Assembly (NCBI GenBank): GCA_002999035.1
Contig: CP027241.1
Location: 1,119,001 to 1,183,000 of the forward strand
Source: Lachnospiraceae bacterium oral taxon 500
GTDB taxonomy: Bacteria; Bacillota; Clostridia; Lachnospirales; Vallitaleaceae
Length of the DNA: 64,000 nucleotides
Direction of reading: 5' to 3'
The position numbers and the translations under genes were made by a program. Shown here piece by piece: positions 7,742 through 26,337 of this stretch (position 1 is the first letter of the stretch; each line of letters starts with the position of its first letter). A model generated the notes under the pieces. That model ran no database searches. It saw only the letters and a program-made list of their open reading frames with translations, and was not told where the DNA came from.

Positions 7742-9088
7742 ATGAAATTATCAGAACAGGCACAAAACTTAACAACCGGCAATATTTGGCAAAAAATGTT
7801 GCTCTTTGTTTTGCCGATTTTTTTGGGAACCGTTTTTCAGTCCTTTTATACGATTGCTGACGCGGTAATTGTCGGTCGTTTTTCCGGCCGGGATGGACTG
7901 GCGGCCTTGGAATCTGTTTATTTTTTGACAAAACTGCCGGTTAATTTCTTTACCGGCCTGGCTTCCGGTGCGGCCATCATTATTTCTCAATATTTCGGAG
8001 GGCGAAAGCTGGATCGCATTTCCGCCGCCAGTCATACGGCGGTGCTTTTTGCTTTTTTAGGCGGCGCCCTGCTGTCGGTCGGAGCTTGTTTGACTGCTCC
8101 GTTTTTTGTTCGGCTGATTGAAGTACCGGCGGAGATTGAAAAGGCGGCACTGACTTATGTCCTGATTTATTTCGGCGGAATGGCGTTTTCCATGCTGTAT
8201 AATGTTGTCGCCGGAATTCTTCGGGCACTGGGCGATTCTAAGACGCCGTTTTATTTTTTGATTTTAGCCACCATTTTAAATGTCGGTTTAGACCTGCTGT
8301 TTGTGGCTGTCTTTGACTGGGGAGTAACCGGCGCGGCCGTGGCCACCCTGCTTGCACAAATTGTGTGTGCGGGACTGATTGTGTTTTTTTTAATGAAAAC
8401 CGATTTACCCTGTAAACTCCGTCCGGCTCAACTCCGGTTTACCGCAAAATATCTGCGCAAAATCGTAAAGCTTGGCCTGCCGATTGGAATCCAGGCGATT
8501 GTTTACCCGTTGGCCAATATCGTTATTCAGTCGGCCATCAATACCTTTGGTGTCAGCTGTATTGCCGCCTGGTCGGTCTGCGGCAAACTGGACTTTTTGA
8601 TTTGGTCGCTGTCGGACGCTTTTTATCTGGCGATTTCAACTTTTGTCGCCCAAAATTATGGAGCCGGTCAGTACCGGCGGGTACGGCAGGGGGTGCGGGC
8701 GGCACTGCTGCTGGCAGGCTGTCTGGTTTTGACAATTAGCGCAATTCTGTATTTCTGGCATATTCCGCTTGGCTATGCGCTGGTGGATGATGCCGAAGTA
8801 ATCAGCATTATGTCGCAGATTATTCATTTATTTGCACCGCTTTACTTTTTATATATTTTTGGCTGCATCCTGCCGGGCGCGATTCAGGGGACCGGCGAAA
8901 CGGCGGGGCCCATGATTTTGACTTTGATCGGCACCTGCGCCAGTCGAATCTTGTGGATTTATTTGGTATTGCCGCGGTATCGCAGCTTTATGACGGTTAT
9001 GCTGTGTTTTCCGGTATCATGGGCACTGACGGCGGTGCTGCTGCTTGTTTTTTATGGCCGGGTGGCCCGGCGGCTTACGGATCAATAA
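7742..9088 (+). CDS. MATE family efflux transporter
   Basis: A 448-residue membrane protein with about twelve helices in two related halves (WQKMLLFVLPIFLGT near 17-31 and KYLRKIVKLGLPIGIQAI near 237-254), the layout of MATE cation-coupled drug/organic-cation exporters. It sits in the cytoplasmic membrane. The ATG at 7742 has only a modest SD (AGAGGG). It lies 65 bases after the Rpn gene and its last 7 bases overlap the 3' end of the convergent LacI-PfkB gene. Its substrate is unknown; context next to the nucleoside locus may be chance. Confidence 0.85.
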   Translation: MKLSEQAQNLTTGNIWQKMLLFVLPIFLGTVFQSFYTIADAVIVGRFSGRDGLAALESVYFLTKLPVNFFTGLASGAAIIISQYFGGRKLDRISAASHTAVLFAFLGGALLSVGACLTAPFFVRLIEVPAEIEKAALTYVLIYFGGMAFSMLYNVVAGILRALGDSKTPFYFLILATILNVGLDLLFVAVFDWGVTGAAVATLLAQIVCAGLIVFFLMKTDLPCKLRPAQLRFTAKYLRKIVKLGLPIGIQAIVYPLANIVIQSAINTFGVSCIAAWSVCGKLDFLIWSLSDAFYLAISTFVAQNYGAGQYRRVRQGVRAALLLAGCLVLTISAILYFWHIPLGYALVDDAEVISIMSQIIHLFAPLYFLYIFGCILPGAIQGTGETAGPMILTLIGTCASRILWIYLVLPRYRSFMTVMLCFPVSWALTAVLLLVFYGRVARRLTDQ

Positions 9089-10986
9089 GGGCGGCTGCTT
9101 CTGACCAGGAGATTCGGTTCCTGCTGATGAATATATGCTTCCAAGGTGTTTTTATCCACCAGTGACGGCACGACACCTTCCCGGGAAATACAGAACCCGG
9201 CGGCATAGCCGGCAATGGCAACCGCTTTTTTTAAGTCAAAGCCATACAGCAGATATGAAGCCAGAGCGGAAATAAAGGCATCGCCCGCTCCGGTATTATC
9301 AATTGAAGGAAAACTTTTGGCCGGAAAGCGTTCGTTTAGTTCCTCTGACAGGACATAACAGCCTTCCGCCCCCAGTGTGACAATGACGATAGCTACGCCT
9401 TGCCGGTAAAGGGAAGCGGCTTTTTCTTCAATCGGGCGGCCGCCCGGACAAATCTCAGACAGTTCTTTCGCGTTTAAGACTAAAATATCAACGCTGCTCA
9501 GCAACTCAGGACTTAAATAATTACAGGATGACGGTTTTAAAATCGTTTTGCCGCCGTGTTTACGCATCAGCCGACAAGCGGTTTCGGCCGCCGGCATGGG
9601 AATTTCGGTGCTGACTAAGCAATAGGCAGTATTTTCAAATAAATATTCTTTTTGCAGTAAATCAGCCGGCGACAGACTGTCATTGGCACCGGATAAAATC
9701 GTAATCGTGGATTCGCCCTTGGGTTCAACAAAAATATAGGCTTTGCCGGTAGAAAACTGCGAGCTCCGTTTTAAGCCGTCCGTATTGACGGTATGCTGCT
9801 GCAAGGCATCGTAAATAATATCCGCTTCCGATTGGCTGCCGACGGCGCTGATGATGGCTGCCCGGTGTCCCAGTTTAGCCGCGCCAATGGCTTCATTGGT
9901 TGCTTTGCCGCCGGCGTACAGGGAGGACTGGGTGGTGAGGATGGCTTTGCCGGAGGTCGGCAGCTGCGGTACCTTTAAATAAATATCCAAATTGGTGCTG
10001 CCGACGGCCAGGATCTTTTGGCTGTGCATAAAATGCGGCACATCAATGGTGGTTCGGCTGCTTAAAGCATATTCGGATTGAAAATGCTCCATAGGCAGCG
10101 GCAAGTTTTCCAGGCGGTGCAGAAGCTTTTGCCCTAAAAACCGACCATAGTCGTAACGGGAAATCGAAAAAGCGGAAATATCGGGAAAGCTGTCCTCCGG
10201 TCGGATATCATCCCGCAGGGAAAGCAGGGAGAAGTCCCAGGGGATTTGATAATGCTGGGCTAGGCTGCGGGCATAAAGATCGGCGGCGGCGGCATAATGG
10301 GAAGAAACTACGGCGGTAACCGCCCGACTGCTGATTTTATGCAGCAGCAGCGGCAGGCTTTGCTCATTAAACACCAAATCTTCGCGCAGTGGAATTTGCC
10401 GGTCAAATAAGCATTTCTTATAGCCGTTAAAAAAGTCCTCGGTTCTGGCGCCGGACAGCAGCAGGCAGGCAATGTCCCGATGATGACAGGCAATTAAGGC
10501 TTGCGTGGCCTGGTAGCCGAAAGCCTGATAATCAATGTTTTCCGATGAGGCAGTCGGAGAATTGAAAAGTAAGTAGGGGATTTTCAGTTTTTCCAGTTCA
10601 GGGGCAAAGTCTAAGCTGTTTTCGGCGGCCATTTCCCATAAGACGGCATCGGCCTTGTTCTTGCCGAAACCGGCCAGCGCTTTCTGTTCCTCGGCCGGGT
10701 CGCCGCCGGACTCGGCTAAAAGCAGCTGGTAGCCGTGCTCGCAGGCGACGGCCAAAATGCCGCTTAGGGTTTTGGATAGGCTTTTATGGGAGCGCAGCAG
10801 TACACCGATCAGGAAGCTCTTGGCGGTTGCCGGCAGAAAGGAATAGGGCGCATAATTATACTCCTTGGCAATCCTTAATACCTTTTCTCTGGTTTCCTGA
10901 CTGATGCTGCTGTCTTTTTGATTCATGACCTTGGAAACGGTTGAAACCGAAACACCGGCCAGTCTGGCAATATCCTTTATATTCAT
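9082..10986 (-). CDS. LacI-type regulator fused to PfkB-family sugar kinase
   Basis: One uninterrupted 634-residue frame. Residues 1-55 are a LacI helix-turn-helix (IKDIARLAGVSVSTVSKVMN); about 56-320 form a periplasmic-binding-protein-like effector domain; about 323-620 are a ribokinase-like PfkB domain with the sugar-binding motif YAGGKATNEA (358-367) and the anion-hole/catalytic motif NTGAGDAF (564-571, Asp569 as base). Ribokinases usually have GGKGxNQ at the first motif, so the second Gly is changed to Ala here, which may alter specificity. It is divergent from a nucleoside-hydrolase/ECF operon and I infer that it represses that operon and the one at 18107, sensing or phosphorylating ribose released from nucleosides. 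The C-terminal codons overlap the MATE gene. Confidence 0.88.
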   Translation of the reverse strand: MNIKDIARLAGVSVSTVSKVMNQKDSSISQETREKVLRIAKEYNYAPYSFLPATAKSFLIGVLLRSHKSLSKTLSGILAVACEHGYQLLLAESGGDPAEEQKALAGFGKNKADAVLWEMAAENSLDFAPELEKLKIPYLLFNSPTASSENIDYQAFGYQATQALIACHHRDIACLLLSGARTEDFFNGYKKCLFDRQIPLREDLVFNEQSLPLLLHKISSRAVTAVVSSHYAAAADLYARSLAQHYQIPWDFSLLSLRDDIRPEDSFPDISAFSISRYDYGRFLGQKLLHRLENLPLPMEHFQSEYALSSRTTIDVPHFMHSQKILAVGSTNLDIYLKVPQLPTSGKAILTTQSSLYAGGKATNEAIGAAKLGHRAAIISAVGSQSEADIIYDALQQHTVNTDGLKRSSQFSTGKAYIFVEPKGESTITILSGANDSLSPADLLQKEYLFENTAYCLVSTEIPMPAAETACRLMRKHGGKTILKPSSCNYLSPELLSSVDILVLNAKELSEICPGGRPIEEKAASLYRQGVAIVIVTLGAEGCYVLSEELNERFPAKSFPSIDNTGAGDAFISALASYLLYGFDLKKAVAIAGYAAGFCISREGVVPSLVDKNTLEAYIHQQEPNLLVRSSRPY

Positions 10987-11100: not shown

Positions 11101-11230
11101 CGTCATTTTGCATAAAAATAGTTAGAAAATAATCAAAAAATAGACAAAAACACAAAAGAATATTGACAGAGACTAGGGGAAGCGCTAATATAAAGGCAAT
11201 CAAGAAAAAAATATAGGAAACCATTTTCCT
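11101..11230 (+). promoter_or_regulatory. 130-bp promoter block, copy 1 (nucleoside operon 1)
   Basis: TTGACA (11163-11168), 17 bases, TAATAT (11186-11191) form a near-consensus promoter. A palindrome AGGAAACCATTTTCCT (11215-11230) lies about 20 bases after the likely start, a good repressor position. The whole 130-base block, including 60 AT-rich bases upstream of -35, recurs without indels at 17953-18082 with roughly 15 differences by eye. The downstream gene starts at 11296. Confidence 0.8.
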
Positions 11231-11295
11231 GTATAGAGCTGTATAGAATACGAAAAATGACAAGGCAGAGCCGATAAGACCGGGAAAGGCAAAAG

Positions 11296-12267
11296 ATGAA
11301 CGAAAAACAAAAAATTATTATGGATGTGGATCCGGGGATTGATGATTCCTTGGCGATTGTATTTGCCGGAATGGCCAAAGCAAGCTTAGAGCTTGTGGGC
11401 ATAACGACAGTGAGCGGCAATGTTGAGGTTAACCAGGCTTCTTTAAATGCGATCAAGGCGCTGCAAATGTGCGGCCAGACGCAGGTTCCGGTTTATAAGG
11501 GAGCGGCGCAGCCGCTGTTCAAGGAATATTGCGACGCGACAGATACACATGGCCGGGATGGGCTGGGCGAAACATTTTTTTCGATAACAGATTGCTGTCA
11601 ACCTATGCCGGCAACGGATTTTATTATTCAGCAGCTGGAACGCTTTCCGGGTGAGATTACGATTTTGGCTTTGGGGCCGTTGACCAATTTAGCTTATATT
11701 TTGCGGAAAAACGAGGGGGCGTTAAAAAAGGCCAGGCAGATTGTGATTATGGGAGGTGCGGCCAAAGTTCATGGGAATTGCTCACCGGTAGCGGAATATA
11801 ATTTTTGGGTCGATCCCCATGCGGCGGCTGAGTTTTTTGTGGCAGGGCTGGAAAATGTAGTTATGGTGCCGCTGGATGTAACCTATTCCATTTTGCTGAC
11901 GCCCAATATCCGGGAGATGATTCACCAGTTTGAGCTGCCGCTGGCGGATTATGTCGATAAAATTACGCGCTTTTATGTGGATTTTCATTGGCGGCAGGAG
12001 CGGACGCTGGGCTGTATTATCAATGACCCGCTGACCGTTGCCTACTTACTAAAACCGGAGATTTTAGGGCTTGCGACGGCGACGGTGCAGGTGGAAACAG
12101 AGGGGCTGTGTATCGGGCAGTCGATTTGTGATTTCCGTGCGCAAACCGGCAAAACTCAAATTGCTCTAACGGTAAATGAAAAGGAGTTTTTTCGCCTGTT
12201 TTTATTAACTTTATTTCCGGAAAGAGAAAAAGATATTTTACGAATGGAACAAAAAGGCTGGATTTAG
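11296..12267 (+). CDS. Nucleoside hydrolase (IunH family), catalytic-His variant
   Basis: A 323-residue member of the inosine/uridine-preferring nucleoside hydrolase family, which cleaves N-ribosides to base and ribose. The calcium-binding Asp cluster is present (MDVDPGIDDS, residues 9-18). The family's second key motif, usually HDP near residue 241, reads INDPLT here with Asn243 in place of the catalytic His; the two other hydrolases in the window keep His. Some activity may remain or the specificity may have changed. It is first in an operon with a second hydrolase 12 bases downstream, an ECF transporter and an MFS carrier. SD is weak (AAAGGC). Cytoplasmic. Confidence 0.85.
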   Translation: MNEKQKIIMDVDPGIDDSLAIVFAGMAKASLELVGITTVSGNVEVNQASLNAIKALQMCGQTQVPVYKGAAQPLFKEYCDATDTHGRDGLGETFFSITDCCQPMPATDFIIQQLERFPGEITILALGPLTNLAYILRKNEGALKKARQIVIMGGAAKVHGNCSPVAEYNFWVDPHAAAEFFVAGLENVVMVPLDVTYSILLTPNIREMIHQFELPLADYVDKITRFYVDFHWRQERTLGCIINDPLTVAYLLKPEILGLATATVQVETEGLCIGQSICDFRAQTGKTQIALTVNEKEFFRLFLLTLFPEREKDILRMEQKGWI

Positions 12268-12279
12268 AAGGAGCGGTTT

Positions 12280-13254
12280 ATGCGAAAAATAATTATTGAT
12301 ACGGATCCGGGAATTGATGACGCATTTGCGATTGCGGCAATGGCCTTATGCAAAGAGGTTGAGATATTGGGGATTTGCAGTGTCGGTGGAAATAAAGGTA
12401 TTGAAGTTACAACCCGCAATGCGTTATCCTTGGTGCGGTGGCTGGATTGTCCCGCTCTGGTCTATAAAGGAGCGGCGCAGCCATTGAATGAAATGGGGGG
12501 CGCCAGTCATACGGAAGATGCGATCCATGGTGTTAACGGCTTAGGCGGTGTTTTTTTGCCGGAGAATCCGGCGGGATTAGCGGCGCAGCCGGCGGAGGAT
12601 TTCATCATTGAAATGGCAGAAAAATATCCGGGCGAAGTTGAGATCCTGGCTTTGGGGCCATTGACTAATTTGGCACTGGCAGCAGAAAAGAATGAAGCGG
12701 CGTTCAAAAAAATAAAAGCGATTTACTCCATGGGCGGCGGAGTGCTGTGCGGAAACGTAACGCCGGTGGCCGAGTTTAATTATTGGTTTGACCCGGAGGC
12801 GGTGGCGAGGGTGCTGCAAGTAACGGCGGAAGTACCTTTTTATATGCTGGGACTGAATGTCACCAATCAAGTTGTTTTTAGGCATCAGGATGTTTTCTTT
12901 TTGGAAAAGGAAGGCGACGAAAAAGGAAAGCTGCTGGCGCAAATGGTGCGTTCGTATTTGGACTTGTTCTGGCAGGACAGGCGCTTAATGGGCTGCGTTA
13001 TCCATGATTTAACAACGGCATTGTTTATGCTGCAGCCGGAATTGGCAAAACCGGAACAGATTTGCCACGCCAATGTGAGAATGGCGGTGGAAGGGATCGC
13101 CCGCGGGCAGACGGTGGTTGATCTGGTGGATTCCTGGCATTTGCAGAAAAATGCTTTTGTGGTTATGGGGATTCAGGCAGATGCCTGCAAGCAAATGTTC
13201 ATGGAATTACTGTTACCGGAAAAAGCGGAACTTTACCAAAAATATGTATTATAA
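12280..13254 (+). CDS. Nucleoside hydrolase (IunH family)
   Basis: A 324-residue paralogue of the preceding gene, 12 bases downstream, with SD AAGGAG before the ATG. The N-terminal Asp cluster is IIDTDPGIDDAF (residues 4-15) and the C-terminal motif is VIHDLTTA with the catalytic His at 242 (the usual Pro after Asp is Leu). It should hydrolyse nucleosides taken up by the ECF or ABC systems nearby, giving base and ribose. Having two tandem paralogues with different active-site residues suggests division of substrates (for example purine versus pyrimidine nucleosides), which is inference. Confidence 0.87.
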   Translation: MRKIIIDTDPGIDDAFAIAAMALCKEVEILGICSVGGNKGIEVTTRNALSLVRWLDCPALVYKGAAQPLNEMGGASHTEDAIHGVNGLGGVFLPENPAGLAAQPAEDFIIEMAEKYPGEVEILALGPLTNLALAAEKNEAAFKKIKAIYSMGGGVLCGNVTPVAEFNYWFDPEAVARVLQVTAEVPFYMLGLNVTNQVVFRHQDVFFLEKEGDEKGKLLAQMVRSYLDLFWQDRRLMGCVIHDLTTALFMLQPELAKPEQICHANVRMAVEGIARGQTVVDLVDSWHLQKNAFVVMGIQADACKQMFMELLLPEKAELYQKYVL

Positions 13255-13255
13255 A

Positions 13256-13390
13256 CTTAACTTTTCCATATTTGTCCGAACAACCTTTTTTAGGCAGGCC
13301 GCTCATCCGGGCAGAAGTGCGAAGTACTTCGATTAGGGTAGGCCACCCGCCCGGGCAGAAAGCGGAGCTTTCGATCAGTGGAAAGTTGAG
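13256..13390 (+). repeat. Dispersed inverted-repeat element, family 1, copy A
   Basis: Ends CTTAACTTTTCC (13256-13267) and GGAAAGTTGAG (13380-13390) are inverted repeats. The left end continues with a family-specific stretch (TTTGTCCGAACAACCTTTTTT). The interior has two hairpin units of the form CCGGGCAGAA(A)GCG-GAGCTTTCGATCAG. Related copies are at 22970-23122 (opposite orientation), 52920-53071 and 58886-59076. No coding capacity; it fills the gap between the second hydrolase and the ECF genes. The remainder up to 13536 shows nothing further. Confidence 0.75.
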
Positions 13391-13536
13391 ATATAAATCA
13401 TGGAAAAGGCGGTAAGAGATAGAGCCGAACCGGGGACGATGGGGGTGTGTATTCGAGTAAAAGCGGGAAGTATTTTGGTAAGGGAAAGCCTAAGTTAAAA
13501 AAGGAAATTGCAAAGCAGCAAGGAGAGGAGAAAACA

Positions 13537-14115
13537 GTGAAAAAGAATTTATCTTTAATGAGTATTTTATTATTTCCAATTGCGATTGCGATTAATTTTG
13601 TCGGTGGCCAGATTGTTGCGCTGCTGCGGCTGCCGGTGTTTTTGGATTGCATCGGTACCGTGTTAGTCGGAGCATTAACGGGGCCGATCGGCGGCTTGAT
13701 TGTCGGGGTAATGACTAATTTGATTTTGGGGATTACAGCTCCGACCTTTATTCCTTATGCAGTAGTATCGGCAGCGATTGGCATAGTATCTGGAATTTGT
13801 GCGAAGAGAGGAATGTTTAAAACTGTTAAAATGACTCTGTTGACCGGCGTGTTTGTTTGGATCGTAACACAACTGACGGCGATTCCGATTACGACTTTAG
13901 TGTTTGGCGGAGTAACGGGCAGCGGGACATCTTTTATTACCGGCTTTTTAGTTGGAGCCGGACAAGGGCTGTTTCAGGCAGTTTTCACGACCAGTATCTT
14001 AACAGAAACCATTGATAAGTTCATTACGGTTTTAATTGCGTATTTTCTGATTAAATCTATTCCGGCTAGAACTTTATCCAAGTTCCCATTGGGCGAAAAA
14101 TATTTGGAAAATTAA
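13537..14115 (+). CDS. ECF transporter S component (substrate-binding), probable nucleoside/base
   Basis: A 192-residue protein with about six hydrophobic helices, typical of ECF S components that bind a vitamin-like ligand in the membrane. The frame is open 90 bases further upstream, but GTG at 13537 is preferred because AGGAGAGGAG (13521-13530) lies just before it and the upstream part is hydrophilic and unconserved in character. It is followed by EcfT and two ATPases, so this is a dedicated (group I) ECF system. The two nucleoside hydrolases upstream point to a nucleoside or nucleobase ligand; ligand identity is inference. Confidence 0.8.
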   Translation: MKKNLSLMSILLFPIAIAINFVGGQIVALLRLPVFLDCIGTVLVGALTGPIGGLIVGVMTNLILGITAPTFIPYAVVSAAIGIVSGICAKRGMFKTVKMTLLTGVFVWIVTQLTAIPITTLVFGGVTGSGTSFITGFLVGAGQGLFQAVFTTSILTETIDKFITVLIAYFLIKSIPARTLSKFPLGEKYLEN

Positions 14116-14205
14116 GTGCAGTTGCGCGTTTGGATATATGGAAAAGCTCTGTTTTTAACGGAGGCTTTTATGTTGATGGGTTGATTTGGGTGAAGGGGGC
14201 GCTTT

Positions 14206-14964
14206 ATGAAGAAAAAAGTTATTTCTGAACTTTACCCGATTACGAAATTAGCGGTAGTTGCAGCGCTGATTGTGATTGGATTTTTGTTTCAAAATTATGT
14301 GTATGGGTATTTTATTGTTTTGCCGTTTACTGTTTTAGCGGCATTTATTGATCGAAGCGGGAAGTCTTATTTGAAAAAAATTACAACGGCGATGTTGTTT
14401 TTTGTTCTGTTCTTTCTGGCCTTTAAAATTATGCTAGATACATCCGATTCCAGGATTTTGCTGAAGTGGGGTTTCATTACTGTCAGGGAGCAGGGACTTC
14501 TTAGCGGGGCAAATGATTCGGCTTTGATTATGGTATTTGCCGCAAGCTTTTTGCTGTTTTTTGAAACCACGGACATGGCGGATTTTATGATTTCTTTAAA
14601 TAAGCTGGGGCTATCGCATGTAGGTTCTTATATTGCTTTATCTACCCTGCAAATGATTCCGGAAATGGGGAAAAAGAGTAAGGTGATTTTGCAGGCGCAG
14701 CAGGCACGGGGAATTGAAACAACCGGCAGCTTGTTTACCCGGATGAAAGCCTTTATTCCGGCGCTGGGGCCTTTGATTATCTCATCTATTACCGATTTGG
14801 AAGATCGGGCGGTTACTTTGGAGGTGAGAGCCTTTTCCAGCGAAAATCCCAAAACCTTTTATCGGGAACTGCCGTTTCGGCTGGCGGATAAGCTGATCTT
14901 GGGAATAACCTTTTTACTGCTGATCGGTTGCATTGTGGGGAGGATTATCCTATGGCTCAAATAG
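14206..14964 (+). CDS. ecfT: ECF transporter transmembrane component T
   Basis: A 252-residue membrane protein with four to five N-terminal helices and a cytoplasmic coupling region carrying the two EcfT coupling motifs: QARGIE (about 165-170) and the EVRAFS segment (about 206-211), which contact the ATPases. SD AGGGGGCG precedes the ATG. Its last 13 bases overlap the start of the first ATPase gene, indicating translational coupling. It transmits ATP hydrolysis to the S component encoded upstream. Confidence 0.88.
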   Translation: MKKKVISELYPITKLAVVAALIVIGFLFQNYVYGYFIVLPFTVLAAFIDRSGKSYLKKITTAMLFFVLFFLAFKIMLDTSDSRILLKWGFITVREQGLLSGANDSALIMVFAASFLLFFETTDMADFMISLNKLGLSHVGSYIALSTLQMIPEMGKKSKVILQAQQARGIETTGSLFTRMKAFIPALGPLIISSITDLEDRAVTLEVRAFSSENPKTFYRELPFRLADKLILGITFLLLIGCIVGRIILWLK

Positions 14965-15821
14965 AAATAAAGGATGTTAGTTTTCAATATCCGCTGACGG
15001 ATTTTCGGGCGCTGGAAAAAGTAAACTTAGAAATTGAAAAAGGAGAGTTTTTGGCGCTGATCGGCAAAAACGGGGCAGGAAAAACCACGCTGTGCAATGC
15101 CATTCGCGGATTGATTCCGCACTTTCAAAAAGGAAAGTACGAGGGAGAAATCAAGATTGACGGTGTCAGCACGAAGGAGATGGATTTGGGGAGTTCGGCA
15201 GCGAAGGTGGGCTTAGTATTTCAAAATCCATTTATCCAGGTAAGCGGGGTCAAGCGGACGGTGTTTGAAGAAGTATTATTTGGTTTGGAGAACCTGGGTG
15301 TTCCCCGTTCGGAAATGATAGACAGAACCAATGATATGCTGTGTCAGTTAAAAATTGACTATCTTAGGGATAAAAACCCAACCGAACTGTCCGGCGGGCA
15401 AAGGCAGCGAGTGGCGATTGCTTCGGTATTGGTAATGAGTCCGGAAATTTTGATTATTGACGAACCGACCTCGCAGTTAGATCCGATCGGAACAGAAGAA
15501 GTATTTGAAACAATCGCATTGATGAAAGAAAAGAAAATAACGATTATCTTGGTGGAGCAAAAAATCAATTTGATTGCCGAATATGCCGATCGGGTGGCGG
15601 TGATGGATAAGGGGAAAATTGTATTATATGGCTCGGCCAGAGAAGTGCTGACCAATAAAGAAATTGAAAATTATGGGGCGGCCTTACCGGAAGTGACGAA
15701 ATTCAGCTATTTCCTGATGGATAAAAAACAAATTCAGCTGACAGAGATACCGATTACTTTGCAGGAAGCCAAAAAAACTTTTGTCGGTCGTTGCGCGGGG
15801 AAAGGGGCGGAGGACTTGTAA
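14952..15821 (+). CDS. ECF transporter ATPase A (canonical signature, switch His replaced)
   Basis: A 289-residue ABC ATPase. Walker A is GKNGAGKTT (38-46), signature LSGGQ (146-150), Walker B ending IIDEP (168-172). The switch histidine expected after the next strand is Gln203 in LVEQKI. The start at 14952 is preferred to an upstream in-frame ATG at 14928, because GGGAGG lies 8 bases before it and homologous ATPases begin at this MAQIEIKDVSF. It overlaps ecfT and abuts the second ATPase. It should pair with that partner in the cytoplasm to drive uptake. Confidence 0.87.
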   Translation: MAQIEIKDVSFQYPLTDFRALEKVNLEIEKGEFLALIGKNGAGKTTLCNAIRGLIPHFQKGKYEGEIKIDGVSTKEMDLGSSAAKVGLVFQNPFIQVSGVKRTVFEEVLFGLENLGVPRSEMIDRTNDMLCQLKIDYLRDKNPTELSGGQRQRVAIASVLVMSPEILIIDEPTSQLDPIGTEEVFETIALMKEKKITIILVEQKINLIAEYADRVAVMDKGKIVLYGSAREVLTNKEIENYGAALPEVTKFSYFLMDKKQIQLTEIPITLQEAKKTFVGRCAGKGAEDL

Positions 15822-16615
15822 TGGATGGAATAAGTTTAGATCATGTGAGTTTTCGCTATGATAATGGTTTTGTGGCAGTAGACGATGTCAGTCTGGAAAT
15901 TGCCAAGGGAGAAAAAGTGGCAATCATCGGCCAAAACGGAGCCGGCAAGACGACAACGGTAAAACTGATGAACGGACTTTTGCGGCCATATTCCGGCTGT
16001 GTTCGGGTCGAGGGCGAGGATATTGCCGGAAAAACAACGGCAACCGTATCTCGCCGGGTAGGCTATGTTTTTCAAAATCCGGGAGATCAAATTTTTAACA
16101 AGGATGTCTATTCTGAAATCGCTTATTCCCCGAAGTACATGAAATTAAGTCCGGATGAGGTGAAAAAGCGGGTTCAGGATGCGGCCGAACTTTGCGGTAT
16201 AGAAAAATATCTGACATTAAATCCTTATGAGCTACCGTTTTCTTTGCGCAAGTTTGTCACGATCGCATCGGTGATTGCGATGGGCTGTGAGTATGTTATT
16301 TTAGATGAACCGACAGCCGGGCAGGATTTAGAGGGGCTGCGCCTGCAAAAAAGAATTATTGATGAACTGATCGCCCGCGGAAAAACGGTCATTACCATTA
16401 CGCATGATATGGAGTTTGTGATTGATAATTTTAGCAGGGTGATTGTCATGGCCAATAAAAAAGTAGTGGGGGATGGGGATGCTAGGGAAATTTTCTGGAA
16501 CTTTGAAGTGCTAAAGCAGGCGGATTTAAAACAGCCCAATATTTTGCAGTTAGCAGATTTTCTGGGAATCCCGGATATTATCAATACCGGAGAGCTGATA
16601 GAGGCATTGCGATGA
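15821..16615 (+). CDS. ECF transporter ATPase A' (degenerate signature, intact switch His)
   Basis: A 264-residue ABC ATPase. Walker A is GQNGAGKTT (37-45), Walker B VILDEP (159-164) and switch His195 in TITHDM are intact, but the signature motif is replaced by LPFSLRK (138-144) instead of LSGGQxR. Start ATG at 15821 overlaps the TAA of the preceding gene (TAATG). Together with its partner, whose signature is intact but switch His is lost, it would form an ABC dimer with one consensus and one degenerate ATP site. Its last bases overlap the following MFS gene (ATGA). Confidence 0.87.
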   Translation: MDGISLDHVSFRYDNGFVAVDDVSLEIAKGEKVAIIGQNGAGKTTTVKLMNGLLRPYSGCVRVEGEDIAGKTTATVSRRVGYVFQNPGDQIFNKDVYSEIAYSPKYMKLSPDEVKKRVQDAAELCGIEKYLTLNPYELPFSLRKFVTIASVIAMGCEYVILDEPTAGQDLEGLRLQKRIIDELIARGKTVITITHDMEFVIDNFSRVIVMANKKVVGDGDAREIFWNFEVLKQADLKQPNILQLADFLGIPDIINTGELIEALR

Positions 16616-17754
16616 CGAGGCAAACCAAATATGTAATTCTTTTCTTTATGTTTGTGACATTTTTCACGGTATTTGAGATGAATGTGGTCTTGCCGCTGGC
16701 CCCCTCGATTGCCAAGCGATATGGGATTGCTTTGGCGGATATTTCGCTTTTAAACTTGGGCTATTCCCTGATGGGGCTTTTGGCTCCGGTTTTCGGATAT
16801 TATTCAGACAGATACAATATTAAATGGGTTTTATTACTGAACTTATTCATTTTTTGCGCGGGCTGCGCAGTGATGGTTTGGGGAACAGGGATTTTTGTTT
16901 TTGTGGCGGCCCGGTCCCTGATCGGTTTAAGCTATTATTCGATTGTCGGATTGACGGCGGCCTATACCGCCGGCGCTGTCAGTCCGGATAAAATCGGCTA
17001 TGTTGGCGGGTTCTATAAGTTGGCATTTGGTATTGGCATTGTAACCTCGCCGATGCTGGGAGCATGGATCACAGAGTATTTTGATTTTACTGTGATTTAT
17101 GTTCTGCTCTTGGGCGCAGGGCTTTTGGGGGCGGCAGGGGTGCTGTTTTTGCCGCCGACGGAAGAAAAAGAAGAGAAGATCACCTGGCCGGAAGCAAAAA
17201 GCCTGCTGAAAGAACGAAAAGTAAAGGTTTATATGCTGATTACCTTTGCTTTGTCCGTTCCGGCGGTCTTCTTTTATAACTATTATTCGGTGCATCTGGA
17301 AATGCTGTCCTTTTCGCAGGCCGAGATTGGCAGGATGTATACCTTTGTTTCGGCGGGGAGTGTAGCAGCAGCGTTTTTGATCATCTTGTGCGGGGAAAAA
17401 ATCGGCAAGCTGCGGCTGGCGATTTGGGGTTTGGTCTTGTGTACGCTGACAGCGATGCCGCTGGCTTTCGGCAGTAAGTTGATTTTAATCATTACTTCGT
17501 TTTTCTTTGGCATTGGCTATGATACTATTTGGGGGCTGCATTTTCCGCTGAGCTCTTTGATTTACAAAAAAGGAAACAGCACTTTCTTAACAATTTTGAG
17601 TTTATCCATGGCGTTTACCAATGTGGTTGCTAACTTGACAGCTCCTCTCGTTTATCATGCCGGCGGCTTTTTATGGAATATGATTCTTTGTTTTGCGGCG
17701 CTGCTTTTGACCACCCTTTTGTATGTCAAGGAAAATCACCAGGATTTACGTTAA
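16612..17754 (+). CDS. MFS transporter, last gene of nucleoside operon 1
   Basis: A 380-residue major facilitator protein with about twelve helices and motif-A-like YYSDRYNIKW between helices 2 and 3. The start codon overlaps the stop of the ATPase gene (ATGA), so it is translationally coupled to the ECF genes. I infer export of the unused nucleobase or import of a related compound; MFS sequence alone does not tell. A strong terminator follows at 17899. Confidence 0.82.
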   Translation: MTRQTKYVILFFMFVTFFTVFEMNVVLPLAPSIAKRYGIALADISLLNLGYSLMGLLAPVFGYYSDRYNIKWVLLLNLFIFCAGCAVMVWGTGIFVFVAARSLIGLSYYSIVGLTAAYTAGAVSPDKIGYVGGFYKLAFGIGIVTSPMLGAWITEYFDFTVIYVLLLGAGLLGAAGVLFLPPTEEKEEKITWPEAKSLLKERKVKVYMLITFALSVPAVFFYNYYSVHLEMLSFSQAEIGRMYTFVSAGSVAAAFLIILCGEKIGKLRLAIWGLVLCTLTAMPLAFGSKLILIITSFFFGIGYDTIWGLHFPLSSLIYKKGNSTFLTILSLSMAFTNVVANLTAPLVYHAGGFLWNMILCFAALLLTTLLYVKENHQDLR

Positions 17755-17898
17755 GTTATTTCGCTTATTTTCCAGCTTTCCTTGCCGGCTGTTTACCGGT
17801 TTTCTTAATCGCGGAGTTGACTCGGTGCAAGGATGTTCGCTTTATGAATTTTCGGGTTCAAAATCTGACTTTATTTTTTGGTCAGGTTGAAACTAAGG

Positions 17899-17943
17899 AC
17901 GCACTCGCAATCGTTGACATTTTGACGAATTGCGAGTGCGTTT
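17899..17943 (+). terminator. Rho-independent terminator of nucleoside operon 1
   Basis: ACGCACTCGCAAT (17899-17911) pairs perfectly with ATTGCGAGTGCGT (17929-17941), followed by TTGTGCTTT. The 140 bases between the MFS stop and this hairpin show nothing else recognisable. Confidence 0.75.
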
Positions 17944-17952
17944 GTGCTTTAA

Positions 17953-18082
17953 CGTCATTTTGCATAAAAATAGTTAGAAAATAATCAAAAAATAACCAAA
18001 AACACAAAAGGATATTGACAAGAACCAAGGGAAGCGTTAATATAAAAGCGATAAAGAAAAAGTTATAGGAAAACATTTTCCT
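17953..18082 (+). promoter_or_regulatory. 130-bp promoter block, copy 2 (nucleoside operon 2)
   Basis: TTGACA (18015-18020), 17 bases, TAATAT (18038-18043), then palindrome AGGAAAACATTTTCCT (18067-18082), all at the same offsets as copy 1 at 11101-11230. The shared upstream part begins CGTCATTTTGCATAAAAATA. The BMP lipoprotein gene starts 25 bases later, with SD AAAGGGGAAG. Confidence 0.8.
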
Positions 18083-18106: not shown

Positions 18107-19216
18107 ATGAAGAAAGTATTAAGTTTGTTGATGGCATGTCTGCTCTGTTTCAGTTTGGCGGCATGCGGCAGTGCGGACAGTGGGAAGAAGGACAGCGGAA
18201 AGCCGGACAGTGGCCAGACGGATAGTGGAAAGAAAGAAGAAACCACCAAAACCGAGGAAGGCAAGAAAATCAGAGTATGTATTGTTTATACCGGAAATCT
18301 GGGCGACAAATCGTATAACGATTCCTGTAACGCCGGAGCGGAAAGAGCAAAAGCAGATTTTGGCATTGAGCTGAAATCCTTGGAAGGAACAACGGCCCAG
18401 GAATGGGAAGCAAACCTGGTAGCGGCCTGCGAGGAAGGCTATGATTTAGTTATCGGTGCTTCGTCCAATATTGCCGACTATATTACCGAGCATGCCGAGA
18501 ACTACCCGAATGTTAAGTTCGCAGTGATTGATACGACCGTTGATCTGCCGACGGTTGAGTCCATCAGTTTTGCTCAAAACGAAGGTTCGTTCTTAGCCGG
18601 CGCGGCGGCAGCAATGTTTACTCAAAAAACGGATATTGAGGGTGTCAATTCAGAAAAAATTATCGGCTGGGTCGGCGGTATGGACATTCCGGTGCTGCAT
18701 GACTTTTACATCGGCTATGAGCAGGGTGCCAAATATATTGATCCGGACATTAAGATTTTGCAGGCGTTTGCCGGCAGCTGGATTGATCCGTTAAAGGGCA
18801 AGGAACTGACACTGGCACAGTATGAGCAAGGCGCAGACATCGTTATGAACGTTGCTTCCGGTACCGGTTCGGGTATTTTGGAAGCGGCCAAAGAAGCGAA
18901 ACGCTATGCCATCGGCGTAGACTTAAATCAGGATAATGACCAGCCCGGCCATGTTTTGACCTCAATGGTAAAAAGAGTCGACAACGCCTGCTATCTGGTT
19001 ATTGAATCAGTGGTTAAGGGAACCTTTGAAGGCGGCAGCACCCAATATCTCAGCCTGAAAGAGGGCGGCGTCAGCTTAACCGATTTTTCGGTAATCAAAG
19101 CAGCCCTGGGCGATAAGTTCCCGCAGGACATCGTTGATAAGTGTAAAGAATTGGAACAAAAGATCATTTCCGGAGAAATTAAAGTTCAAAATTACGAAGG
19201 CTTTGGCCCGAAATAA
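18107..19216 (+). CDS. BMP-family nucleoside-binding lipoprotein
   Basis: A 369-residue exported lipoprotein. The signal peptide ends in the lipobox LAAC (about 17-20), followed by a low-complexity linker of DSGK-type repeats (about 23-45), then a Basic Membrane Protein/PnrA-like periplasmic-binding fold beginning KIRVCIVYTG. BMP proteins of Gram-positive bacteria (for example BmpA of the Lactococcus NupABC system) bind nucleosides outside the cell. It heads an operon with matching ATPase and permeases. A hairpin terminator after the gene would keep its mRNA level above that of the membrane components. Confidence 0.9.
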   Translation: MKKVLSLLMACLLCFSLAACGSADSGKKDSGKPDSGQTDSGKKEETTKTEEGKKIRVCIVYTGNLGDKSYNDSCNAGAERAKADFGIELKSLEGTTAQEWEANLVAACEEGYDLVIGASSNIADYITEHAENYPNVKFAVIDTTVDLPTVESISFAQNEGSFLAGAAAAMFTQKTDIEGVNSEKIIGWVGGMDIPVLHDFYIGYEQGAKYIDPDIKILQAFAGSWIDPLKGKELTLAQYEQGADIVMNVASGTGSGILEAAKEAKRYAIGVDLNQDNDQPGHVLTSMVKRVDNACYLVIESVVKGTFEGGSTQYLSLKEGGVSLTDFSVIKAALGDKFPQDIVDKCKELEQKIISGEIKVQNYEGFGPK

Positions 19217-19226
19217 AGCGTAAAAA

Positions 19227-19291
19227 AAGCTGCCGCACGGGGGTGGTACCGACCAGTCGGTAAAGTCATCCTGCGCGGCAGCTTATTTTTT
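19227..19291 (+). terminator. Partial terminator between binding protein and ABC genes
   Basis: AAGCTGCCGC (19227-19236) pairs with GCGGCAGCTT (19275-19284), enclosing a second stem ACCGAC/GTCGGT, followed by ATTTTTTGG. Probably an attenuating terminator that sets the ratio of binding protein to transporter. Confidence 0.7.
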
Positions 19292-19314
19292 GGAACAAAA
19301 GAGAAAAGGTTACA

Positions 19315-19398
19315 GTTCAGGCAAGCTCCCGATAATCTGCCGATATTTCGGTGAATTATGAGTATGGGCGGTAAGCATAAATATCCGTGTGTCTGAAC
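19315..19398 (+). repeat. Dispersed inverted-repeat element, family 2
   Basis: Left end GTTCAGGCAAGC (19315-19326) and right end GTCTGAAC (about 19391-19398) match the ends of family-2 copies at 26238-26311 and 47939-48220. The interior differs. It lies between the binding-protein terminator and the ATPase gene. Confidence 0.55.
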
Positions 19399-19421
19399 CC
19401 GACCGGCAAATGAGGGAAAAG

Positions 19422-20966
19422 ATGAGCGAATACATTGTAGAAATGAATAATATTGTAAAATCGTTCGGTGAGGTGCGGGCGGTGCGGCATGGCGAGTTTA
19501 CTCTGGAAAAGGGCGAAATTCACTCTCTGATCGGAGAAAACGGAGCCGGCAAGTCAACGATGATGAAGCTGCTGTACGGGATGTATCCGATTGATGACGG
19601 AGAAATTATCGTCCGCGGCAAAATGATGCCGAAGCTGGAGCCAAGACTGGCGATTCAGCTGGGTATCGGTATGGTGCATCAGGAGTTTGTACTGGTTAAC
19701 GATCTAACGGTTTTGGAAAATATTATTTTAGGCTTTGAGCCGAAAAAAGGTTTTACCATCGACTTTGACCGGGCCAGAAAAGACGTGAAGCGTTATATTG
19801 AGCAGTATAATATGGAGATTCAGCTGGATAAAAAGGTGGGTCAGATTTCCGTCGGCGAAGCGCAGCGGGTAGAGATTATCAAGACACTGATGCGGGGAGC
19901 GGAGGTCATTATTTTAGACGAGCCGACGGCGGTGCTGACGCCGCAGGAAACCAGAAAGCTGTTTGAAATCCTCCAGAATTTAAAGGAAGAAAAAAAATCA
20001 ATTGTATTTATTTCGCATAAATTAAATGAAGTCATGGAAATCTCCGACCGGATCAGCGTCATGCGTCAGGGCAATTATATTCGGACCGTGCCGAAGGCAG
20101 AAACCAATCCGCTGGCGCTGACTAAGGATATGATTGGCCGCGAAGTTTTCCTCAATATTGAAAAGGATTATGACCGGCCCGGCGAAAAGATTTTGGAAGT
20201 CAAAGATGTCTGGGTGCCGAGCCAAAAGGAATCCTCTAAAATCAGAGGATTGTCCTTGTCCGTAAAGGAAGGGGAAATTGTCGGCATTGCCGGTATTGAC
20301 GGCAACGGTCAATCGGAACTGATTGAAGCGATTACGGGCTTACGCCGGACGGAAAAAGGGCAGGTGCTGTTAAACGGCCGGGACGTGACGAATAAAAGTC
20401 CCAAAGAAGTGCGGCAGGCAGGTTTGGCGCATATTCCCGAGGACCGCAATGTTCGCGGGCTGAACCGGGAGATGAGCATAGAGGATAATCTGGTGGCGGT
20501 GGAAATCGATCAGCCCCGTTTTTCCAAAGGCCTTTTAAGAAATGAGCAGGCCCAGGCTGAACACGCCGGGCAGCTGGTCGGGCAGTTTGACATTCGGCCG
20601 GCCGACTATAAACTGGCGGCCTCGTCATTATCGGGCGGCAATGCCCAAAAAGTAGTCGTTGCCCGGGAAGTATCAATGAAGAAAAAACTGCTGGTTGCCT
20701 CCCAGCCGACGCGGGGGATTGACGTCGGAGCCATTGAGATTATCCGCTCCGCTTTGGAAAAAGCCAAAAAAGAAGGGGCGGGAGTGCTTCTGGTATCGGC
20801 CGAACTGGAAGAAATTATTTCTTTGTCGGATCGGATTTTAGTGATGCATGAAGGCCGGATTACCGGCGAAATGCCGGCGCAGGAAGCCAATGAAAATAAC
20901 TTGGGCCTGTTGATGATGGGAGCAAAAGTGCAGGAAGGAGAGCAAAGTCATGAATCAATCCGTTAG
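19422..20966 (+). CDS. Nucleoside ABC transporter ATP-binding protein (NupA-like, two NBDs)
   Basis: A 514-residue double ABC ATPase of the sugar/nucleoside type. The first half has Walker A GENGAGKST and signature ISVGEAQR; the second has the degenerate Walker A GIDGNGQSE and a normal LSGGNAQK, the usual pattern of RbsA/NupA-like proteins. The frame is open to a GTG at 19389, but that lies inside the repeat element; ATG at 19422 with GAGGGAAAA before it is preferred. It ends 17 bases inside the next permease gene. It powers uptake of the ligand bound by the BMP lipoprotein. Confidence 0.9.
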   Translation: MSEYIVEMNNIVKSFGEVRAVRHGEFTLEKGEIHSLIGENGAGKSTMMKLLYGMYPIDDGEIIVRGKMMPKLEPRLAIQLGIGMVHQEFVLVNDLTVLENIILGFEPKKGFTIDFDRARKDVKRYIEQYNMEIQLDKKVGQISVGEAQRVEIIKTLMRGAEVIILDEPTAVLTPQETRKLFEILQNLKEEKKSIVFISHKLNEVMEISDRISVMRQGNYIRTVPKAETNPLALTKDMIGREVFLNIEKDYDRPGEKILEVKDVWVPSQKESSKIRGLSLSVKEGEIVGIAGIDGNGQSELIEAITGLRRTEKGQVLLNGRDVTNKSPKEVRQAGLAHIPEDRNVRGLNREMSIEDNLVAVEIDQPRFSKGLLRNEQAQAEHAGQLVGQFDIRPADYKLAASSLSGGNAQKVVVAREVSMKKKLLVASQPTRGIDVGAIEIIRSALEKAKKEGAGVLLVSAELEEIISLSDRILVMHEGRITGEMPAQEANENNLGLLMMGAKVQEGEQSHESIR

Positions 20967-22056
20967 GGCAGTTGTAAAAATAGGCTTGACTCTTTGCCTG
21001 GTGCTGGCCATCGGCGCGGTCTTTATTTTGGCGATCGGGGAAAATCCGGTCAGCGCTTATCGGGCGGTGTTAAAAGGTGCATTCGGTACCCGGCTGGGTC
21101 TGGGCAATACGATTGCCGGCTTTACACCTTTGCTTTTGACTTCCACGGCTTTTGCGGTGGCAGCCAAAGCCGGTGCCTTTAACGTCGGTGTCGAAGGCGA
21201 GGTTTGTCTGGGCGGGATTGCAGCCGCTTATATCGGCATTAACTGGGGCTTTTTACCGAAGCCGTTACTGCTCTTGGCCTGTTTTTTGGGCGCGATGGTG
21301 GTGGCCGGATTGTGGGCCTGCATCCCGGCTTTTTTAAGAGCATATTATGATGTTTCGGAGGTCTGCGTCACGATTTTGATGAATACGGTTGCCCTTTATA
21401 TCGCCTCTTATCTGGTCAGCGGGCCGATGAGCGCCGGAACGGCCAATCCGCAGTCGCATCCCGTGCTGGTAACGATACCCAAGATTATGAAGCCGTCGTC
21501 GGCTAATGCCGGTATTTTTTTGGCGGCGGTCGTGGTCGGGCTGGTGGTGTTTATGCTGTATAAAACCAAGTGGGGCTACAAAATCCGAACGGTCGGCACC
21601 AATCCCTATCATGCCGATTATGTCGGGATTTCTTCAAAAAGAGTATTTATCCAGGCCATGATTTTATCCGGGATGCTGGGCGGAATGGCCGGCTGCATTG
21701 AGGTGCTGGGTGTGCATGGTTATTATTTGGATAACTTTGCCCGGGACTTGGGTACCAACGGCATGCTGGCGGCGTTAATTGTTAAATCCAATCTGATTTT
21801 CACGCCCTTTATGGCATTCTTTTTGGGAGCGCTTAAATCAGGAGCAATGGCCATGCAGCAGTCAACCGGCGTACCGAAATCAATTGTGGATACGATTTCT
21901 GCCGTTTTTATCATTGTGGCAACAATGGAGCTGCTGTTCCAGTGGAAAGCAAGATCCTCATTTCTTTCTAAATTAAAAAAGACGCAGCCGCAGACAGGAG
22001 CGGAACAAACCGAAGGAGGGAGCGAAAATAATGGAAAATCTGGCGAAAATCTTTAA
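20950..22056 (+). CDS. Nucleoside ABC transporter permease (NupB-like)
   Basis: A 368-residue inner-membrane permease of the BPD_transp_2 type found with BMP-family systems, with eight to ten helices. The family motif around AFNVGVEGEVCLGG (near 77-90) is clear. It overlaps the ATPase gene by 17 bases, with SD AAGGAGAG inside that gene, and overlaps the next permease by 26 bases, so the three are translationally coupled. The C-terminus is a hydrophilic Gln/Glu-rich tail. Confidence 0.88.
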   Translation: MNQSVRAVVKIGLTLCLVLAIGAVFILAIGENPVSAYRAVLKGAFGTRLGLGNTIAGFTPLLLTSTAFAVAAKAGAFNVGVEGEVCLGGIAAAYIGINWGFLPKPLLLLACFLGAMVVAGLWACIPAFLRAYYDVSEVCVTILMNTVALYIASYLVSGPMSAGTANPQSHPVLVTIPKIMKPSSANAGIFLAAVVVGLVVFMLYKTKWGYKIRTVGTNPYHADYVGISSKRVFIQAMILSGMLGGMAGCIEVLGVHGYYLDNFARDLGTNGMLAALIVKSNLIFTPFMAFFLGALKSGAMAMQQSTGVPKSIVDTISAVFIIVATMELLFQWKARSSFLSKLKKTQPQTGAEQTEGGSENNGKSGENL

Positions 22057-22966
22057 TCTTTCTTTGATTTACGCAACCTTTCGGGCGTCAACGCCGATTA
22101 TTTACGCGGCGCTGTGCGCGGCTATCACGCAGCAGGCCAATATTTTAAATATCGGCACCGAAGGCATCATGCTGATAGGAGCGTTTACGGCCGTGGCGGT
22201 CAGCTTTTTTACCGGCAGCTGGATAGCCGGAGTTTTGGTGGCGATGTTGGCCGGCGGGCTGATTGCAATGATTATGGCGGTTGGACATATTCGCTATAAT
22301 TCCGAGATTTGTGCGATTGGCATGGGCATTAACCTGTTGGCTATTGCCGTGACCAAGTTTTTGATGCAGGTTATTTTTAAGACCAACGGAACCTTTTCCA
22401 ATCCGTCGATTGTACCGATTCCGCGGATTTCCGTACCGTTTTTAAAAAACATTCCAGTGATTGGCGAGATTTTAAATGATTGGAGTCTAACGGAATGGTT
22501 TGTCCTGGCATTCATTATCTTTCTTCAATTTTTATTTTATAAAACCGTTTGGGGACTGCGGCTGCGGGCAGTCGGCAAGCTCCCGATAGCGGCCCAGACG
22601 GCCGGCATTCATGTCAATGCCGTCAAATATCAGGCCATGTTTATTTCCGGAATTATCGGCGGCCTGGCCGGTGCACATTTATCGCTGGGTTACAGCCGGC
22701 AGTTTGTGGAAAATATGACAAGTAGCCGCGGTTTTATGGGCGTGGCAGCCATGTATTTCGGCGGCGGCGATCCGGTGCTGACGGCGGTGGGTTGTCTGCT
22801 GTTTGGCTTTGCTGATTCCATCGGCGCCCGCTTGCAGGCCTATGGTTTTCCGGCTCAGTTTGTCCTGATGATGCCGTATCTGGTTACGGTTTTAGTGCTG
22901 GCGGTGTCAATGTTTATTAAGATTAAAACTCATAAGAAAAAGGAGTCGTCGCTGATGACGAATTGA
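22031..22966 (+). CDS. Nucleoside ABC transporter permease (NupC-like)
   Basis: A 311-residue partner permease of the same family, with the motif NILNIGTEGIMLIGAF (near 37-52) equivalent to that of the preceding protein. SD GGAGGG lies just before the ATG inside the upstream gene. It should form the heterodimeric channel with the NupB-like subunit. It is followed by a family-1 repeat element and then the third nucleoside hydrolase. Confidence 0.88.
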   Translation: MENLAKIFNLSLIYATFRASTPIIYAALCAAITQQANILNIGTEGIMLIGAFTAVAVSFFTGSWIAGVLVAMLAGGLIAMIMAVGHIRYNSEICAIGMGINLLAIAVTKFLMQVIFKTNGTFSNPSIVPIPRISVPFLKNIPVIGEILNDWSLTEWFVLAFIIFLQFLFYKTVWGLRLRAVGKLPIAAQTAGIHVNAVKYQAMFISGIIGGLAGAHLSLGYSRQFVENMTSSRGFMGVAAMYFGGGDPVLTAVGCLLFGFADSIGARLQAYGFPAQFVLMMPYLVTVLVLAVSMFIKIKTHKKKESSLMTN

Positions 22967-22969
22967 TAA

Positions 22970-23122
22970 CTCAATTTTCCTCGGGCGGGCGTTCTTGCCC
23001 TGGTCGAAACGCTATGCGTTTCTGCCCGGGTGGGCGACCTACCCTGATCGAAAGCTTCGCTTTCTGCCCGGGCGGGCGACCTACCAAAAAAAGGTTGTGC
23101 TGACAAATGCGGGAAATTGGAT
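22970..23122 (-). repeat. Dispersed inverted-repeat element, family 1, copy B (reversed)
   Basis: Begins CTCAATTTTCC (22970-22980) and ends near GGAAATTGG (about 23112-23120). The right-hand AAAAAAAGGTTGTGCTGACAA is the reverse complement of the family-specific left end of copy A. The interior holds two hairpin units (for example CGAAAGCTTCGCTTTCTGCC). It sits inside operon 2 between the permease and hydrolase genes. Confidence 0.72.
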
Positions 23123-23147
23123 TCATAATTTCAAAAAGGAGAACAAA

Positions 23148-24080: not shown

Positions 24081-24100
24081 GGCGGGAAGGAGGACGTTAA

Positions 24101-25378: not shown

Positions 25379-25483
25379 AGCAATAAGAATAAGGGAAAAA
25401 AGGCGAGAACCGCCGAAGCGGTGCGCTGCTTAAAACAATGAGAGAATAAAGTCCAACCAGCTGATATATCAGGAGGAGATAAG

Positions 25484-26230: not shown

Positions 26231-26237
26231 TTATATC

Positions 26238-26311
26238 GTTCAGGCAAGCCGTCTGTAGCGGCGGAAGGAGTTCCGCCGGCATAGCAAGTATCAATCGTTG
26301 CTTGCCTGAAC
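26238..26311 (+). repeat. Dispersed inverted-repeat element, family 2
   Basis: GTTCAGGCAAGC (26238-26249) and GCTTGCCTGAAC (26300-26311) are perfect inverted 12-base ends around an internal hairpin CGGCGGAA/TTCCGCCG. It fills the gap before the ribokinase gene and could also act as an mRNA hairpin. Confidence 0.72.
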
Positions 26312-26337
26312 TGTAATCAAGTGTAAGGTGGTATCAA

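Follow-up and report, generated by a model that had tools for sequence, protein, structure and literature searches.

A duplicated promoter-operator module probably joins two nucleoside operons in a local regulon of a LacI-PfkB fusion regulator in Lachnospiraceae bacterium oral taxon 500

The subject of this study is a block of 130 bp that occurs twice in a stretch of 64,000 nucleotides from Lachnospiraceae bacterium oral taxon 500 (contig CP027241.1, positions 1,119,001 to 1,183,000), which was analysed as a whole and is called the window in the following. Each copy stands before an operon predicted to serve nucleoside import and cleavage. The first block is placed between the first of these operons and a divergent gene for LacI-PfkB, a regulator with an N-terminal LacI-type DNA-binding domain and a C-terminal ribokinase-like PfkB domain (Table 1). 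Two nucleoside hydrolase genes of the IU_nuc_hydro family follow block 1, together with an energy-coupling factor (ECF) transporter, and a third one is found after block 2 in an operon for a Bmp/PnrA-like ATP-binding cassette (ABC) transporter, in agreement with a preliminary description of this DNA, according to which both blocks lead into nucleoside genes.

Table 1. Features at the two blocks and in their surroundings (positions of the window).
Feature	Position	Strand	Remarks
LacI-PfkB regulator	9082..10986	-	LacI helix-turn-helix (HTH) 2-47, sugar-binding-like 162-303, ribokinase-like PfkB 323-608; Pfam, NCBIfam, structure model
Promoter/operator block, copy 1	11101..11230	+	before the IUNH-IUNH-ECF-MFS operon; 115/130 identical to copy 2
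TGCATAAA element near the 5' edge of block 1	11109..11116	+	count of TGCAYAAA in promoter regions
Sigma-A-type promoter TTGACA-17-TAATAT, copy 1	11163..11191	+	letters checked
29-bp tandem operator, copy 1	11202..11230	+	left palindrome degenerate, right palindrome 11215-11230; model R1 24.4 bits
Operon 1: two nucleoside hydrolases, ECF S/T/A1/A2, major facilitator superfamily (MFS) transporter	11296..17754	+	same gene order in G002; extent inferred
Promoter/operator block, copy 2	17953..18082	+	before the BMP-ABC operon; 115/130 identical to copy 1
TGCATAAA element near the 5' edge of block 2	17961..17968	+	count of TGCAYAAA in promoter regions
Sigma-A-type promoter TTGACA-17-TAATAT, copy 2	18015..18043	+	letters checked
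29-bp tandem operator, copy 2	18054..18082	+	right palindrome 18067-18082; model R1 29.1 and 29.2 bits
Operon 2: BMP lipoprotein, ABC ATPase, two permeases, nucleoside hydrolase, M20 peptidase, GATase1-like protein, ribokinase-like PfkB, second M20 peptidase	18107..28471	+	extent inferred from spacing and conserved order

Direct alignment of the two blocks needed no gaps and gave exactly 15 differences, about as many as had been estimated before. The edges of the repeat are sharp, since the flanking 10-mers examined on both sides agree at just one to four of ten positions, and a BLAST search with copy 2 as query recovered copy 1 with an E-value of 1.1e-42. Each block carries the TTGACA-17-TAATAT promoter that had already been recognised and, at equal offsets, a 16-bp even palindrome, the size of which falls within the range of 16-22 bp given for the even palindromes of LacI-type operators in the sections of Ravcheev et al. 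(2014; PMC4052901) used here. The string of the palindrome had initially been written as AGGAAA-N4-TTTTCCT, with one T too many; the correct form is AGGAAA-N4-TTTCCT. The 17-base string, tried as a search pattern, matched at just one other place in the genome and was dropped as a typing error.

The palindrome represents the right part of a longer operator of 29 bp, located just downstream of a TTGACA-17-TANNNT promoter, for which we fitted the pattern AAGAAAANNNTTTAGGAAAANNTTTTCCT, i.e. two palindromes that overlap and whose centres are separated by 13 bp. The underlying 45-column pattern was fitted to the sequences themselves (39 of 45 used) and is to be read as a description, not as a test. 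Both window sites have a complete right palindrome, while the left one retains its left half (AAGAAAA) and has lost the right half. The operator starts 10 bp beyond the -10 box and hence overlaps the expected start site and the first transcribed bases.

Orthologs of the regulator were found in 15 of 392 genomes of the order (E<=1e-70), in 27 of 397 from another family of that order (E<=1e-90) and in seven loci of a contig database, which belong to the sister genome G002 and to Lachnospiraceae, Lachnoclostridium and Oribacterium records. Nucleosidase, BMP/ABC, ECF or ribokinase genes are clearly present near the regulator gene in 13 of 20 compared loci (manual count), and some of the remaining seven are cut by contig ends. 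Conservation of the palindrome before orthologous operons, proposed earlier as a check, is indeed seen: the exact palindrome precedes the orthologous BMP operon in G279 and in Oribacterium, in the latter at a distance of 3.4 kb from the regulator, and, with one change, it precedes this operon in G002 and a kinase-nucleosidase operon with ECF-type ATPases in G353. Moreover, it holds in Enterococcus raffinosus, which is discussed below.

Seven such sites, two each from the window genome (G000) and G002 and one each from G279, Oribacterium and G353, were combined in a weight matrix, which was then applied to up to 400 bp upstream of the regulator gene in 39 other loci. Among these held-out rows, 21 scored at p<0.01 and 27 at p<0.05. 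One locus (L121) has the same upstream sequence as another (L098) and was removed, leaving 38 distinct loci, whereas two broken or partial orthologs (L136, L138) were retained among the held-out rows; an operator close to the regulator gene or its operon, which is expected for a local regulon of LacI type, was thus found at p<0.01 in 21 of the 38. The Fisher combination over the 39 rows amounts to 3.6e-32. This value overstates the support, because related genomes are not independent, but the same relatedness applies to a control with 60 scrambled symmetric matrices, which reached p<0.01 in a mean of 0.55 and a maximum of 4 loci.

The tandem form of the operator recurs outside the window as well. 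When 25 distinct loci having a site with p<=0.02 were scanned for a second site at every offset from 1 to 45 bp, the offset of 13 bp alone stood out (mean score -0.56, positive in 15/25 loci), compared to 0/25 at 12 bp and 1/25 at 14 bp; the next-best offset was the trivial shift by 1 bp (mean -4.86, 3/25). Furthermore, a promoter-like pair directed toward a flanking gene precedes the site in 17 of the 25 held-out loci (manual count), and in those 17 the double site lies 6-11 bases past the -10 box, as in the window, a position in which a bound repressor would block initiation. The geometry also bears on a different explanation, in which the palindrome acts in the RNA as a hairpin of the 5' leader that tunes mRNA stability or translation. 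Such a role would fit its location in the predicted leader, its folding as an isolated hairpin of 7-8 bp (-6.1 and -6.8 kcal/mol) and the changes on both sides of the arms between loci (AGGAAA/TTTCCT versus AAGAAA/TTTCTT). However, two overlapping palindromes 13 bp apart are unable to form both hairpins simultaneously, several sites match on both strands, and in four loci (L100, L115, L124, L129) the best 16-mer begins 7-9 bases after the end of the -10 box, at the expected start site. As the presence of the site also follows the regulator gene and no Rfam family exceeded its threshold in the window, an action of the palindrome in the RNA appears very improbable.

The association between operator and regulator was also examined on the level of whole genomes. 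Among the three analysed genomes of the genus (G000, G001 and G002), G000 and G002 each contain two copies of a palindrome-centred 18-mer with no more than one mismatch, all four of them before nucleoside operons, while in G001 neither a near-exact 18-mer nor a match to the regulator at E<=1e-80 was detected. The other 20 rows of this search have three mismatches (one of them is the copy 2 site on its other strand), and the totals per genome of 10, 6 and 8 do not exceed those of a reversed-pattern control (12, 15 and 13). For wider searches, the model R1 was built from 17 of 23 listed sites, which had been selected from 45 by excluding the window genus and weaker sites. The six omitted sites (G279, L132, L100, L093, L129, L126) look less regular, and R1 is thus somewhat sharper than a model of the full set would be. 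Because 150 candidates were scored per genome, weak sites may have escaped the search. When R1 was applied to 22 genomes of the family, the top of the matches listed was formed by the four sites of G000 and G002 (E-values 2.9e-6, 7.5e-6, 1.8e-5 and 9.6e-5), which were the only ones listed below 0.005; the best match listed in the 20 genomes without the regulator had 0.0091. In 38 further genomes, 22 with and 16 without the regulator according to the E<=1e-70 or E<=1e-90 thresholds, the strongest sites listed were again in regulator-bearing genomes, and the best match listed in the 16 others (9.8e-4) falls inside a reading frame. Taken over the genomes outside the R1 training, a match below 5e-4, a cut-off set after the lists were known, is listed in 6 of 14 genomes with the regulator (G000, G002, G317, G428, G359 and G540) and in 0 of 36 without it (p 1.9e-4). 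R1 matches that fall within reading frames of G401 and G392 were judged to be chance hits, as was a match in G346 that has no nucleoside gene in its vicinity.

In G317 and G540, the distant sites of which are in no training set, strong operators (L179, G317:C23:8342-8372; L180, G540:C28:85-116) precede operons that begin with an IU_nuc_hydro gene and include a ribokinase-like gene and other transporter genes. Both operons are located on a different contig than the regulator gene, and this speaks for an action of the regulator in trans on genes of the same kind. The distribution of sites is also relevant for the assumption that the site is bound by a different protein, possibly a global regulator of the CodY or CcpA kind, and LacI-PfkB is just a neighbour. 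Some sites contain a TTTTC-N-GAAAA in the middle, which resembles a CodY box, and AAGCGCT/AAGCGTT near the -10 box shows a slight likeness to a CcpA site. But the CodY-like box is poorly kept in the middle of the window sites (TTATAGGAAAA), from a global regulator one would expect many sites per genome rather than the two near-exact ones in each of G000 and G002, and site presence tracks LacI-PfkB across genomes, even into a different bacterial class. We therefore give binding by a different protein only a slim chance.

The case from the different class of bacteria came from a plasmid search, in which a regulator ortholog with 40.7% identity was found in two records of Enterococcus raffinosus. 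In the record examined (locus L186 1286-7849 on the 1.19 Mb plasmid pF162_2_1), the regulator gene is divergent from an operon for ECF S (41%), T, two ATPases, an MFS transporter, an IU_nuc_hydro nucleosidase and a PfkB kinase, which closely resembles operon 1 of the window. Between regulator and operon lies AAGAAAACATTTTCGGAAAACGTTTTCCT, with two near-perfect palindromes 13 bp apart that score 30.9 bits with R1; like those of G317 and G540, this site was in no training set. The plasmid location hints at a horizontal spread of the set of regulator, operator and operon.

With regard to the history of the blocks, one could assume that they are alike merely through a recent passive duplication, which carried along the upstream 60 bp and the palindrome without any shared regulation. 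In addition to the sharp edges, all 15 differences are confined to the last 88 bases, leaving the first 42 bases identical (probability 0.003 under an even spread), and these 42 bases differ from G002 more than the operator does, so a recent copying or conversion fits their identity better than constraint. Furthermore, 17 informative sites group the blocks by genome and none support either alternative grouping; the pairs share 115/130 positions in G000 and 104/132 in G002, compared to 86-87/130 across the genomes. Copying or conversion was hence lineage-specific: either the module was duplicated independently in the two lineages, or each pair is kept alike by gene conversion. However, a passive event explains neither the similar block pair in G002 nor the recurrence of the operator and promoter parts in other genera with differing flanks, and we consider it highly improbable that duplication is the whole explanation. 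The recent duplication suggested in the preliminary description thus applies only in part, given the second pair and the signs of homogenisation or separate duplication within each genome. In G002, the regulator gene is directly divergent from a BMP operon with one block in between, and the second block precedes a second BMP-type operon, downstream of which the ECF operon is found with the same seven genes (69-83% identity). From the different gene order it follows that, in one lineage, the ECF operon changed its place or else acquired or lost a module of its own. A DNA search with the 130 bp in 40 relatives recovered, apart from the sister genome, numerous short A-rich matches in other places; seven of the latter loci were widened, gave some match to a window protein in four cases and none in three, in no case to the full regulator, and were set aside.

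The same preliminary description had noted that similarity extends about 60 bases upstream of the -35 box and suggested a further site there. A TGCAYAAA element accounts for part of this region, the rest of which it does not explain. It is present in 12 of 33 promoter regions of orthologous loci, among them three 9-base stubs (L091, L092, L093), compared to a mean of 0.58 and a maximum of 4 in shuffled sequences. Its distance to the -35 box is approximately 12-13 bp in L096, L097, L099, L100, L123 and L128, approximately 53 bp in the window blocks, L117, L120 and L123, and it lies elsewhere in G279 and L132. Several of the 33 rows are close relatives or paralogs, and the element is hence to be taken as a lead only.

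The regulator protein itself matches the LacI HTH family at residues 2-47 (PF00356, 67.1 bits, cut-off 27), followed by a periplasmic-binding-protein-like core (PF13377, 32.9 bits, cut-off 26.5) and the PfkB domain (PF00294, 171.5 bits). Across 42 aligned sequences, hardly any variation is seen in the recognition helix. By sequence and by predicted fold (mean pLDDT of the model 89.4), the PfkB half is nearest to ribokinase; it is predicted to superimpose on E. coli RbsK (1rkd) over 306 columns with a TM-score of 0.93 by target length, and shares the catalytic-type motifs, of which GGK..N, GAN and D.TG..D are invariant in 29 aligned orthologs. Hence, a kinase activity is plausible, and so is ribose as a signal. 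Different from RbsK, however, this half is fused to a DNA-binding regulator and stays below the ribokinase equivalog cut-off (TIGR02152, 221.9 versus 299.65 bits).

Taken together, we interpret the two blocks as paralogous promoter-operator modules of one local regulon, in which LacI-PfkB represses both operons until an inducer is present, and estimate the probability of this interpretation at roughly 0.87. The divergently encoded LacI-PfkB would bind the 29-bp tandem operator, with two dimers or one tetramer occupying the double site, and would thereby block transcription of the ECF-type and the BMP/ABC-type operons, whereas ribose, a nucleoside or a phosphorylated product may release it. A regulon joining both importers under LacI-PfkB had been proposed before; genome comparison strongly supports it, with the palindrome as part of a longer tandem operator.

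Several observations weigh against this interpretation. Twelve of the 39 held-out rows have p>=0.05 (L086, L090, L096, L098, L099, L118, L121, L127, L133, L134, L135, L136), although in two of them, L086 of G317 and L127 of G540, the site is on another contig, and 8/25 loci showed no promoter-like pair at the usual distance (manual count). Eight of the 14 regulator-bearing genomes outside R1 have no listed site below 5e-4; moreover, the training sites of R1 were found via a matrix that included the window sites, so the R1 tests are not fully blind. The ECF operon of G002 lacks a separate block and is situated behind the block-bearing second BMP operon. In the window, 228 bp separate the beginning of the block 1 palindrome from the start codon of the regulator gene, and autoregulation is thus not evident there. 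Furthermore, the protein and its site deviate from the usual LacI type. The canonical LacI hinge reads PN..AR.L, and its leucine inserts at a central CG of the operator. In LacI-PfkB, PY replaces PN in 40/42 sequences and an A[RK].L-like string occurs in 1/42; residues 49-54 of the hinge show a pLDDT <50 and no helix, which is weak evidence since the model is free of DNA. The central steps of the 25 held-out sites are TA 12, TG 8, CA 2, CT 2, TC 1 and CG 0, those of the seven training sites CA 4, TA 2 and TG 1, but the right palindrome of the E. raffinosus operator does show a CG centre. For comparison, 1173 of 1303 LacI-family regulators have CG at the operator centre according to the sections of Ravcheev et al. 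(2014) mentioned above. We dropped the assumption that a pyrimidine-purine step is always found at the centre, because 22 of the 25 held-out sites fit and three do not, and the matrix itself favours such a step. The lack of the hinge motif together with the rarity of CG at the centre marks a departure from the usual LacI type.

Generally, the arrangement resembles the local nucleoside regulons of AdeR, HpxR and UriR as they appear in these sections (Ravcheev et al., 2014), which likewise combine a LacI-type regulator, an even palindromic operator and local nucleoside catabolic targets, but LacI-PfkB differs from them in its C-terminal ribokinase-like domain, the atypical hinge, the tandem overlapping operator and the centre that is rarely CG. 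Among the best matches of the LacI part are RbsR (NCBIfam NF047341; PDB 9ny7) and CcpA (PDB 2o20), but with 84.9 bits the protein scores far below the curated RbsR cut-off of 382. In the classical rbs operon the kinase is encoded by a separate gene, unlike the fused LacI-PfkB. We know of no LacI-type protein with a tandem operator geometry of this kind, and no paper on a LacI-ribokinase fusion regulator was found in open-licence PubMed Central articles, searched mostly by title and the opening of the abstract.

Two further observations concern operon 1. The ECF S component (13447-14115) is nearest to the uncharacterised CD3073 family (129.9 bits, cut-off 180), and its gene context suggests a nucleoside, nucleobase or ribose as substrate. 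Just upstream of block 2, a perfect inverted repeat of 13 bp (ACGCACTCGCAAT / ATTGCGAGTGCGT, 17899-17941) is perhaps the terminator of this operon.

Beyond the repressor model, LacI-PfkB may be a combined sensor and enzyme, with a kinase half that phosphorylates ribose or a nucleoside and so consumes or converts its own signal, and with dimerisation of the kinase halves coupling two LacI dimers on the 13-bp double operator into a switch-like response. This extension is tentative and in our estimate rather unlikely. The local regulon proposed here assigns an operator and a target gene set to the LacI-ribokinase fusion regulator, the exact 29-bp site of which is open to direct test, and links the use of nucleosides or ribose with an ECF transporter similar to the uncharacterised CD3073 type. 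If LacI-PfkB should indeed sense and phosphorylate the same compound, it would represent a new kind of self-limiting transcription factor, which occurs in Lachnospiraceae-type clostridia as well as on an Enterococcus plasmid.

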